Below, in pieces: positions 32,336 through 36,204 of a stretch of DNA of 64,000 nucleotides. This stretch comes from an uncultured Poribacteria bacterium (GTDB taxonomy: Bacteria > Poribacteria > WGA-4E > PCPOR2b). Each line of letters starts with the position of its first letter. The first letter of the stretch is position 1. The notes below the pieces were generated by a model. It worked only from the letters and a program-made list of their open reading frames with translations. It had not been told where the DNA came from and ran no database searches. Both the position numbers and the translations under genes were made by a program. Where the stretch lies: contig OY282444.1 in the NCBI GenBank assembly GCA_958296125.1, positions 1,607,940 through 1,671,939 on the forward strand. The letters are read 5' to 3'.

Positions 32336-32836
32336 TCAAAACCAAATGTGAACGAGCGGCACAACGAGTCTATCTGGCTCATCGGGGTCCCAATCGTTCT
32401 GTCTGACATCTTGGATTGGTGACCGCCGTGGAGGGGTCATACGTTGCGGCGAAGTGGGAATCAGTTCTTCTGAAGGATTTTTATTGTGTGTATGCAGCCA
32501 ATCCCAGAAACCGATAAAGAGAGCGAGCGATACCGCAGATGCCCCGATAATCCTGAAATCTGTCCCGGAGAGTTCGGGCGCAAACTCATTTTGCTGAATC
32601 ATTTGGAGGCCACGCACGCCCACATAGCTATGAATCGCTGTAAATGGCAGAGCGATGATGGTAACAATCTCAAAGCGACGTAACGCGCTTTCATGGTAAA
32701 CTTCCTCCTCTTGCCGACGAGCGGGCGACATCTCCTCCTCCGAACCTCTCTGATATTGGGCAGAAACATCGGTCACAACCATTGCGGTTAAAATCAGAAT
32801 GATGAGTAATCTAATTTTCGATCTGTTTCGCTTCAT
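32336..32836 (-). CDS. Uncharacterised small membrane protein between lspA and def
   Basis: 166 aa, not recognised. Signal-like N-terminus (RLLIILILTAMVVTDVSA), then two hydrophobic segments (FEIVTIIALPFTAIHSYVGV; IIGASAVSLALFIGFWDWL). A Pro/Arg-rich tail ends in an aromatic strand (LVVPLVHIWF), which could suit an outer-membrane or periplasm-exposed protein. GGAGA SD. It overlaps the lspA 3' end by 26 bp, so it is translationally coupled to lspA. Confidence 0.65.
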   Translation of the reverse strand: MKRNRSKIRLLIILILTAMVVTDVSAQYQRGSEEEMSPARRQEEEVYHESALRRFEIVTIIALPFTAIHSYVGVRGLQMIQQNEFAPELSGTDFRIIGASAVSLALFIGFWDWLHTHNKNPSEELIPTSPQRMTPPRRSPIQDVRQNDWDPDEPDRLVVPLVHIWF

Positions 32837-33311
32837 CGTAATCTCCTCGATGCTGAAATAGATAAATCATCAGCAGCCCGGCACCGATACAAACGGCGAC
32901 ATCGGCAACATTGAAAGTGGGCCACCAGAAGCCGGGCAGTCGAAATTGAATAAAATCTGTGACTTCTCCGACGCGAATACGGTCGATAAAGTTACCGAGT
33001 GCACCCCCAAGCAAAAAACTGAGCGCAATCTTCATCCACAAACTCTCGCGGAACTGCCTGTAGTAGTAGGCAATGAAGCCCATTGCAACAACTGAGATGA
33101 TAACTAGCAGCAGGCTTTGCCCCGGCATCAGTCCAAATGCGGCACCGTCATTTGTATCATGGCGGAGGTTCAACATACCCTGAATTATCACGTGTTGACC
33201 ATGAGATGGGATATTTTGTTGAACCAGCCACTTGGTGAATTGGTCCACCAATAACACGGGCAAAGCAATACCAAATAGAGGTAAAATCAATTTTAGCACG
33301 TTTCTCTGCAT
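32811..33311 (-). CDS. lspA: Lipoprotein signal peptidase (signal peptidase II)
   Basis: 166 aa, four predicted membrane helices. Catalytic aspartates are in NLRHDTNDGAAFG-type and GALGNFIDRIRVGEVTDFI motifs (about 50-60 and 110-130). It cleaves prolipoproteins before the lipidated Cys, which fits the lipoproteins seen in this window. It sits directly downstream of the IleRS-like gene, preserving the common ileS-lspA order. Confidence 0.93.
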   Translation of the reverse strand: MQRNVLKLILPLFGIALPVLLVDQFTKWLVQQNIPSHGQHVIIQGMLNLRHDTNDGAAFGLMPGQSLLLVIISVVAMGFIAYYYRQFRESLWMKIALSFLLGGALGNFIDRIRVGEVTDFIQFRLPGFWWPTFNVADVAVCIGAGLLMIYLFQHRGDYDEAKQIEN

Positions 33312-33380: not shown

Positions 33381-33497
33381 CTAAGGCTTAAGCACAACAC
33401 CTATTACGTTTTGATTTGCCTGTTCCTCTAGCAATTGCTTCCAACGCACGTCCGCGTCCGCAAGGTGAGGATGGTTACGGCATACGGAGCATGCCTA
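33381..33497 (-). pseudogene. In-frame IleRS-like C-terminal remnant beyond tandem TAG stops
   Basis: Directly after two adjacent in-frame TAG codons (33500-33498 and 33497-33495), the same frame stays open for 37 codons to a third TAG at 33381. Its end reads DVRWKQLLEEQANQNVIGVV, closely matching the IleRS C-terminal helix pattern (W..L...R..V...LE..R...IG.SL). The upstream portion holds a CxxC (CSVC). It shows the ancestral gene was longer. Confidence 0.6.
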
Positions 33498-35849
33498 CTA
33501 CTTCAAGGTTAATATGGGAAACCGGGAAACCCAATTTTTCAAAAAAACGCTCGACAATTCAGACTCATCTTGACGTTGGGTGTAATCCGGATGTGAAGCA
33601 GCGGCCTCTCGTATTTGGATTAAAGCGTAGGTTTGTTCGGAGAAAAAAGGAATGATTGGCGCAAACCGTTGTACCAAGACATATAAAATCGCTGATAGTA
33701 CCGTTTGGCAAGATTTCTTTTCTAGCACTGCTTCCGATGTATTGAACCGATTATCGCAGAATTGTTGAAGATTTGATTGGCAGAAGTCCCTTAGCAGACA
33801 CCATGCTTGATAAAAATCGCGTTGCTGATAGGCGAGATCTACGGATTGGAGCACTCTGGCAGTGGTGGATAAGATCTGTGTGTCCGGTGTTAGCAGCGGT
33901 TCTAGCGGAGGCTCATGTAGGTCAAGGGTAAAATCTTCGAGATAACTTAATATCATGGTGCACAGTTCTTGAATGGTGTTGTATTCATGCTGACACTGTT
34001 GGAGGTGCATCTCCATTGATGACGGATCCAGATTGGGCTGGAGGCAGAGCAAACGCAGTACATCCTTTGGATATTTATCCATCCAGCTTTGGTTGACATC
34101 AATCGATTGGACATTTGAATGATCGCCTATCAACTCTATATTCAACGGTGCCGCATCGGAGATAGCAATCGAAGTCAAAACGAACTGAGCGAACCATTTA
34201 CGAAATTGATTCGTGTAAAAGAAGTAAACATTAATCGGATCAATATCATTTCCCTTGACTTCAAGATTGTTGATTGCGTTGAGCAGAACCGCGAAACGTC
34301 CATCAAGGGTTGTAAATTCTTTCTGAAACTCTTTTGCATCACAGTGAAGGCATAAGGTGTTTGGAGGTAACTGATCTTCAGCACTCAACTTAAACCAGCT
34401 ATCGGCCCCGCGACGACCCATCGAAGTACGGATGTCTTTGGTAATCCGGGTGTCAGAAAGTTCGCTCCCACATTTTTGGCACTGAAAAATAGGAATCGGA
34501 GTTCCCCAACCTCTGTAGCATGAAACACATGGAGGCGGAAGCTCCCGGATCGTTTGTTGTATCCAATCCCTATCTTTAGGGCTATAGTGTGTCAAATGTT
34601 CACCTGAACAAAGCACACGTTCCCTCAGTTGATTGTTGTCCAAGGAAAAAATCCATTGTTGAACAGCACGAAACAAGGCAGGCGTATCACACATCCGACA
34701 GTGGGGCTGCTGCACCTCCTCAAATCCTGCTGATATTAAGTACCCCCGTTTTTCCAATTCAAAGGCGATAAATTTTCCTGCGTCGGAAACTTCAAGCCCA
34801 CAAAACTGCTCGCAATCCTCTGTCAGATGCCCCATATCATCAATAACCGATGTAATCGGCAGTTGCAGGGATCGAGCAATTTGATAATCATAAGGACTGT
34901 GCCCCGGGGTGAGATGCCGTACCCCGGTCAGTGGTTGAGATATTGTCTCCTCGTTCAGCGCACTGTTATGTTGAGAAAAATCCGGGATGGCGACTACCGG
35001 AAGGTCTGTGCCTAGGAACGGATGGGCGCAGATGCAGTCCGTCAGCACCTCAACCGGACAGGTTTGCAATTGATTTATACCTGCCTGATGATCTGGTGGA
35101 AAGCGAGTTGAAAAATCTTCCTCAGCGAGAAGAAGGATTTCACCGCCTAGTTCAACAATCCAATACTTGCTACTTTCCCTCAACCCAATGGCAACACTTC
35201 CAGCAAGGTGCCATAGATCTTGGAGCCATGCTAGCAGGTAAACGTCCTCGCCAAATTCTTCTAAGCCGATACTGACAGGAAATTTGACGTACCCGGAATA
35301 TGCCGGGGCCGGGTGAATTTGCGTCTCATCCACATCTAATACTGTATTACATTCCGGACACCAAGCCCCCAATTTTTGATCTTTATTCAAATAACCCAGT
35401 TCTTGCAATGTGCTGAAAGCATCGATAATCTTCGCTTCATCGCGTGAATCCGGACTTTTGCCCTTTTTCCAATTTCCAAAGGTCCCAAGTGCCCGCAGTT
35501 GATTTTGCCGTTGTTCAACCTCGCGCTGGAACTCACGTCGACACTGCCGGCGAAATCGGAGTGCATCAAAGGTGCCATCTTTAGACTCTCGACTCAACGC
35601 CTTTGTTTCGACAGCAGACGTATAATAATTCCAATGCGGCACATATTCCACGCCCCTCCCTTGCATTATGTTGACTTTAAGAAAAATGTCTTGGTGGATC
35701 TTGCCTTTAAGCGCATCCAATTTCAAGTGATGGGTAGCTGTGGGCATTTCTCGAAGGATGTAGGTTGATTCCGCTCGTTGAGTCAGGTGGGCATAGATAT
35801 CAATCTCATCCCATAATTTCAGGATTTTTTCTTCAGTCAGCATTTTCAA
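33498..35849 (-). CDS. Degenerate isoleucyl-tRNA synthetase-like protein, probably not catalytic
   Basis: 783 aa against about 930-1050 for IleRS. The class I IleRS layout is recognisable along the full length. Residues 1-85 align with the N-terminal catalytic half, e.g. NIMQGRGVEYVPHWN for MQGxxxxYVPGWD. Residues 185-400 align with the CP1 editing domain (LTPGHSPYDYQ, PHCRMCDTPALFRAVQQW). CYRGWGTPIPIFQCQKC and RRGADSWFKLSAED follow, then the anticodon-binding domain (KSCQTVL, QRFAPIIPFFSE). Key motifs are lost: HIGH is replaced around residues 39-44 (THHLKL), the CP1 TTTPWTLP by AWLQDLWHL, and KMSKS by IGDHSNVQSIDVNQS near 574-588. The frame is intact, so it may serve another role. A functional ileS is expected elsewhere. 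Confidence 0.8.
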   Translation of the reverse strand: MKMLTEEKILKLWDEIDIYAHLTQRAESTYILREMPTATHHLKLDALKGKIHQDIFLKVNIMQGRGVEYVPHWNYYTSAVETKALSRESKDGTFDALRFRRQCRREFQREVEQRQNQLRALGTFGNWKKGKSPDSRDEAKIIDAFSTLQELGYLNKDQKLGAWCPECNTVLDVDETQIHPAPAYSGYVKFPVSIGLEEFGEDVYLLAWLQDLWHLAGSVAIGLRESSKYWIVELGGEILLLAEEDFSTRFPPDHQAGINQLQTCPVEVLTDCICAHPFLGTDLPVVAIPDFSQHNSALNEETISQPLTGVRHLTPGHSPYDYQIARSLQLPITSVIDDMGHLTEDCEQFCGLEVSDAGKFIAFELEKRGYLISAGFEEVQQPHCRMCDTPALFRAVQQWIFSLDNNQLRERVLCSGEHLTHYSPKDRDWIQQTIRELPPPCVSCYRGWGTPIPIFQCQKCGSELSDTRITKDIRTSMGRRGADSWFKLSAEDQLPPNTLCLHCDAKEFQKEFTTLDGRFAVLLNAINNLEVKGNDIDPINVYFFYTNQFRKWFAQFVLTSIAISDAAPLNIELIGDHSNVQSIDVNQSWMDKYPKDVLRLLCLQPNLDPSSMEMHLQQCQHEYNTIQELCTMILSYLEDFTLDLHEPPLEPLLTPDTQILSTTARVLQSVDLAYQQRDFYQAWCLLRDFCQSNLQQFCDNRFNTSEAVLEKKSCQTVLSAILYVLVQRFAPIIPFFSEQTYALIQIREAAASHPDYTQRQDESELSSVFLKNWVSRFPILTLK

Positions 35850-35907: not shown

Positions 35908-36180
35908 TTAAAAGGTCGCCCTCAACATCCTTTGCAGTATTTGTAAAAAGATTATTAAAATAAGTGGGGAGATATCAATCCCCAAGCCCCCTGTCAGGGG
36001 ACTGAGAACGCGGCGAATTGGATCTAGTGCTGGGTCAACAAATCGATTCGTCATCCAATACAGTTGTCTGACTGTCATATTACGAGAGAAGTTCACAACC
36101 CAGGATAATATCACATTGGCAAAAACAATGATTGAGTAAACCCCAATCGCTTCGGTCACGAGAGGTATCAATACTTCCAT
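35908..36180 (-). CDS. YggT-family membrane protein
   Basis: 90 aa from the ATG at 36180 (GGAAGG upstream); a GTG at 36204 directly after the proC stop is also possible. Two hydrophobic segments flank a polar loop: GVYSIIVFANVILSWVV and DISPLILIIFLQILQ. The family pattern PLLxPIRRxxPxxGGxDxSP is seen as DPALDPIRRVLSPLTGG-GIDISP. YggT/YlmG proteins act in envelope or division-site organisation and typically lie next to proC/yggS, as here. Confidence 0.85.
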   Translation of the reverse strand: MEVLIPLVTEAIGVYSIIVFANVILSWVVNFSRNMTVRQLYWMTNRFVDPALDPIRRVLSPLTGGLGIDISPLILIIFLQILQRMLRATF

Positions 36181-36204
36181 AGTCGAGAGACCTTCCAATT
36201 TCAC

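Follow-up and report, generated by a model that had tools for sequence, protein, structure and literature searches.

A probable pseudo-synthetase derived from type-1 isoleucyl-tRNA synthetase at the ileS locus of Candidatus Poribacteria

A synthetase-like gene between yggT and lspA

The window, a 64,000-nt stretch of a Ca. Poribacteria genome assembled as one 5.16-Mb contig, carries on its minus strand a gene derived from type-1 isoleucyl-tRNA synthetase (IleRS1), which we refer to as pseudo-IleRS (33498..35849). Pfam matches and locus comparison place it between yggT (35908..36204, minus strand), which precedes it in a conserved gene order, and lspA (32811..33311, minus strand), which follows. 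The frame is free of stops and spans 783 codons from the listed TTG start (35849), or 781 from an ATG two codons downstream (35843), which is the likelier true start. As the initial annotation had proposed, this intact frame aligns with IleRS almost from end to end, residues 5–748 matching positions 11–793 of the 861 in the TIGR00392 ileS model, but at 255 bits the protein lies far under the curated cut-off for a functional IleRS, 621 bits. Automatic annotation may label it as isoleucine--tRNA ligase, and metabolic models of Poribacteria would be misled by that name. It matches the Pfam families tRNA-synt_1 and Anticodon_1, and among solved structures it comes closest to IleRS enzymes of type 1, with Priestia megaterium IleRS1 as the top phmmer match in the PDB (E 1.2e-56). 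A confident AlphaFold2 model built from 18 homologues (pLDDT 85, pTM 0.81) again ranked IleRS1 structures top in Foldseek, with a TM-score of ~0.64 and an rmsd of 7–8 Å, values that imply no single rigid-body overlay of the model on IleRS1 enzymes. Model and alignment, both of which the initial annotation had called for, agree on an IleRS fold with the CP1 domain and core zinc knuckles, from which the motifs are gone. A search for T-boxes, other Rfam elements and tRNAs found none in the window.

Orthologues of pseudo-IleRS occupy the same yggT–lspA slot across Candidatus Poribacteria, a bacterial phylum that lives in association with sponges. Among 50 loci from named genomes, yggT lies upstream in 49 and lspA downstream in 49, and the usual order is yggS-proC-yggT-[pseudo-IleRS]-lspA-X-fmt, in keeping with the conserved yggS-proC-yggT-ileS-lspA order; class-level relatives show the same order as far as their contigs extend. 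Recovery of same-locus orthologues from dozens of independent assemblies rules out assembly error or contamination. Identity of the orthologues is 73–77% within the genus, 51–60% within the family, about 30–38% within the order and mostly 26–33% within the class. Of five outgroup genomes, three have a working IleRS1 next to lspA or in its vicinity, which identifies the yggT–lspA slot as the ancestral position of ileS. Two further features of these loci are of note. The end of lspA is overlapped by the frame of a 166-residue protein (32336–32836, minus strand) that matches no Pfam family and is kept there in nearly all Poribacterial loci seen, with dN/dS of 0.19–0.41; and in G081 (L217, L218) the lspA beside pseudo-IleRS is split across two frames, by either a frameshift or an assembly error.

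Three genomes (G006, G009 and G012) have the locus intact and lack pseudo-IleRS, and we found no significant remnant of it at their empty sites. This clean loss indicates that the gene is dispensable. Neither pseudo-IleRS nor lspA was found in G073, G082 and G084, which are therefore outside the loss count. The empty yggT–lspA site of G006 (L147, about 960–1420) contains a small frame, roughly 100 codons long (MSVTVIVRYQAKPDKIDALL...), that by eye resembles a small ABM-type domain.

Loss of catalytic motifs and retention of the zinc-held body

The initial annotation had found the HIGH, KMSKS and threonine-rich editing motifs unrecognizable, and this holds for the window copy and for all 54 pseudo-IleRS copies that we aligned, on which the counts below are based. 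In the window copy, HIGH has become KLDA (residues 43–46; 35712..35723, minus strand), GWDCHGLPIE reads HWNYYTSAVE and EGSDQHRGWF reads FYTNQFRKWF; the KMSKS loop is gone, its place taken by a shortened loop at about residues 575–580 that aligns only approximately (34110..34127, minus strand). Neither an HXGH (or type-2 GXHH) signature nor KMSKS occurs in any of the 54 copies. GWD, DVWFDSG and EGSDQHRGW persist as scattered residues: at the GWD aspartate, 52 of 54 copies have D, N or E, whereas most copies have lost the tryptophan of DVWFDSG and, in EGSDQ, both the acid and the glutamine. The editing site of CP1 has fared no better, as TTTPWT is now LQDLWH in a segment no longer rich in threonine (residues 207–214; 35208..35231, minus strand), the editing threonines are substituted throughout the alignment, and the editing-site aspartate is left in 14 copies; loss of this threonine-rich motif also disfavors a role as a trans-editing factor. 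Five IleRS1 rows share 199 invariant columns, of which 46 are retained in pseudo-IleRS and 153 are not. Pseudo-IleRS is thus an enzyme homologue whose entire orthologous group has shed its catalytic residues, as defines a pseudoenzyme.

Conservation is highest in the Rossmann/CP1 body, which two zinc knuckles hold together; their eight cysteines are present in 52–54 of the copies. Knuckle 1 is formed by C164 and C167 (54/54 and 52/54; 35349..35360) with C384 and C387 (54/54 and 52/54; 34689..34700), and knuckle 2 by C457 and C460 (34470..34481) with C500 and C503 (34341..34352), each in 54/54, all on the minus strand. The proline of HDGPP and the tryptophan of HRGW occur in every copy; P36 and W552, at positions that we take to be isoleucine side-chain contacts in IleRS, are invariant. 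Other residues are newly fixed in the family, namely R474 and a G-x-E-x-x-G motif at the entry to CP1 (G195, E197, G200; 35250..35267, minus strand) that is not conserved in working IleRS.

The C-terminal parts that read tRNA are in a different state. The anticodon-binding helical domain (about residues 653–750; 33600..33893, minus strand), delimited by Pfam and alignment, is among the least conserved parts, and the C-terminal tRNA-reading zinc domain of IleRS1 is absent from all 54 copies. Some class-level copies match the ileS model up to positions 855–857 of 861, whereas those of the window's family stop at about 793–808. In the window copy, stops remove the last ~20 residues, and a vestige of the tail found in relatives (ADADVRWKQLLEE) lies beyond them in the same frame (33385..33470, minus strand, limits approximate). 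The R-N-T-x-R helix residues invariant in IleRS1 are also gone in the window's taxonomic order, which, together with loss of the zinc domain, argues against present-day anticodon reading in that order. The copy of G083, which belongs to a different class of the phylum, is a fragment whose first half, including the HIGH site, lies beyond the contig edge. It lacks the second-half catalytic motifs, KMSKS included, yet retains the CERCW zinc finger at its C-terminus as well as the RNTCRF helix. From these sequences it appears that catalysis was lost first and tRNA reading later.

Descent, displacement by a type-2 IleRS and selection

In a maximum likelihood tree, made by a quick search and containing some long branches, all 21 sampled pseudo-copies form a single clade (SH-aLRT 100) that joins IleRS1 as its sister (SH-aLRT 99), apart from IleRS2 and ValRS. 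The motif-less state spans the phylum, which rules out recent local decay; the initial annotation had, if anything, understated a condition that is ancient and phylum-wide.

That another functional ileS had displaced this one was also suggested at the outset, and the proposed genome search for a second copy yields one other IleRS, this one above the TIGR00392 cut-off, a 1123-residue protein of the type-2 branch (G000:C1:90629-93985, L161) with GVHH as its HIGH equivalent and an AMHKS loop. The GVHH form is active in type-2 IleRS (PMC10485003), and as the sole candidate found in the genome this enzyme is assigned isoleucine charging. More broadly, a profile search placed an IleRS above the cut-off in 75 of 85 Poribacterial genomes. 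Among the matches listed these are separate, long-form genes (about 1000–1190 residues, except where a contig end truncates them), and the ones included in the tree belong to type 2; we found no working IleRS1 in the 85 genomes. Pseudo-IleRS co-occurs with type-2 enzymes of either kind, KMSKS or AMHKS. In families f1, f2 and f7 (L161, L162-L166) the divergent GVHH/AMHKS enzyme stands in place of the canonical KMSKS IleRS2 that the other families have, and its identity of 78–80% between families suggests lateral transfer.

Selection on pseudo-IleRS is purifying but loose. Pairwise YN00 estimates within the genus give dN/dS of 0.26–0.43 at dS of 0.1–0.85, compared with 0.06–0.35 for its neighbors (yggS, proC, yggT, lspA and a ubiA-like gene) and 0.19–0.41 for the 166-residue frame behind lspA, and the frames contain no stops. 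When neutral evolution was simulated to 0.05 substitutions per site, the frame already acquired about 4.5 stops and 1 of 60 frames was still open, and none stayed open at 0.1 or more, so the open frame is not a matter of chance. The initial annotation had read selection from the long open frame and proposed dN/dS across related genomes as a check; the values lie well under 1 and, with the simulated decay, indicate a gene kept by selection, as a pseudoenzyme would be. Between the same genomes IleRS2 evolves much more slowly than pseudo-IleRS (87% vs 41% identity for G022/G026).

Possible roles of the retained protein

We consider it very probable that this gene encodes a catalytically dead but selected pseudo-synthetase derived from IleRS1 and displaced by a type-2 IleRS, and that it probably has a new, non-catalytic job. 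The window gene would be the type-1 ileS that Poribacteria had ancestrally; charging of tRNA(Ile) would have passed to a type-2 IleRS before the sampled families diverged from one another; and the displaced ileS1 would have stayed in its operon, dead but with its fold preserved, at first still reading tRNA, as in the G083 copy, and later dropping this ability in the window's order. Its function would presumably be one of binding, with the zinc-knuckle-held Rossmann/CP1 body serving as a scaffold or regulatory subunit. Conservation peaks in this body and is among the lowest in the anticodon helices, which for the window's order favors a partner that is a protein or an RNA contacted on its acceptor side over anticodon reading. 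We tentatively propose a partner in translation, with the working IleRS or its tRNA as the leading candidate. The roles suggested initially, tRNA(Ile) binding, regulation or a stress factor, are hypothetical, and loss of the anticodon-reading parts speaks against reading of the anticodon in the window's order today. A more specific version, which we hold to be doubtful, is that the pseudo-synthetase controls isoleucine charging and modulates translation by binding either the IleRS2 that displaced it or the tRNA of that enzyme. The taxonomically independent losses, in G006 and in G009 with G012, both fall in lineages with the GVHH/AMHKS enzyme, as expected if the protein were tuned to the KMSKS IleRS2, a post hoc correspondence of two events.

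By analogy to the HisRS-like HisZ, an isoleucine pocket stripped of ATP chemistry might instead signal the level of isoleucine or branched-chain amino acids to a partner. The invariance of P36 and W552 and the acid or amide at the GWD aspartate position fit such a sensor, which we judge improbable, as the DVWFDSG and EGSDQ residues named above are mostly gone, the proline and tryptophan may be purely structural, and no branched-chain synthesis gene adjoins pseudo-IleRS. It is less probable still that the gene is a functionless relic, slow to vanish inside an operon: its fast evolution, dN/dS above that of its neighbors, trimmed C-terminus and clean loss in three genomes would suit decay, but the frame has stayed open across phylum-scale time with dN/dS within the genus clearly below 1, the eight zinc cysteines and new family-wide invariants are maintained, and the operon outlives loss of the gene, so that it is not needed as a spacer. 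We give an equally small chance to an enzyme with an altered active site, for instance a user of Ile-tRNA like SbzA; newly conserved residues (REMP, G195/E197/G200 and R474) do lie within or close to CP1 and the former active site, but SbzA keeps HYGH and AMSKA (PMC12945691), which are wholly missing here, the locus has no biosynthetic cluster, and the tRNA-reading C-terminus is gone. A working IleRS with unusual motifs can be dismissed in spite of the IleRS-like fold and retained zinc sites, since every motif group is gone at once in all copies, another IleRS exists and other Poribacteria survive without the gene; IleRS1 is intolerant even of a rearranged HIGH, as the swap to GXHH abolished activity in the IleRS1 of two species (PMC10485003).

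Pseudo-synthetases are known from other families. SLIMP is an animal protein derived from the class II synthetase SerRS, and HisZ is a shortened class II protein with HisG as its partner. Together with AS-A and SbzA they are among the described synthetase-like proteins (PMC9437257; SbzA also PMC12945691), SLIMP being listed as a SerRS-like protein among the SerRS paralogues (PMC9437257), and none of the four is a non-catalytic IleRS1. Pseudo-IleRS resembles SLIMP in being synthetase-derived, having a putative non-charging role and coexisting with a working synthetase, but is bacterial, class I and IleRS-derived, and here the original gene at the original locus has changed. HisZ offers a bacterial example of a synthetase-like protein reused outside charging, and SbzA is an IleRS paralogue with a non-housekeeping role, but one that keeps its signature motifs and some charging activity and is located in an antibiotic cluster. 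From IleRS1 itself (TIGR00392), pseudo-IleRS has kept the fold, domain order, zinc knuckles and position before lspA, consistent with its place as sister clade, but it differs in the loss of HIGH, KMSKS, GWDCHG, EGSDQHRGW, the editing threonines and the C-terminal zinc domain, and in its score far under the family cut-off. We found no IleRS-derived pseudoenzyme in the literature searched, though the duplicated synthetases surveyed by Chaliotis 2017 may include one. Whereas in the usual picture it is an added synthetase copy that diverges (PMC9437257), the copy that diverged in Poribacteria is the original one, still in the operon to which it belonged. The phylum offers a natural series in which a displaced essential enzyme is retained as a non-catalytic protein, apparently losing its catalytic motifs first and tRNA-reading parts later while keeping the zinc scaffold, and makes the use of a synthetase body without its chemistry a directly testable question.

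As a hint of tRNA binding, net charge shows no clear trend, the pI varying from 4.7 to 9.1 among copies. In one family (f3; L020, L023, L028, L034, L044) pseudo-IleRS carries a lysine-rich N-terminal extension, which in L044 contains an AT-hook-like RGRPPKKK and could possibly contact nucleic acid.
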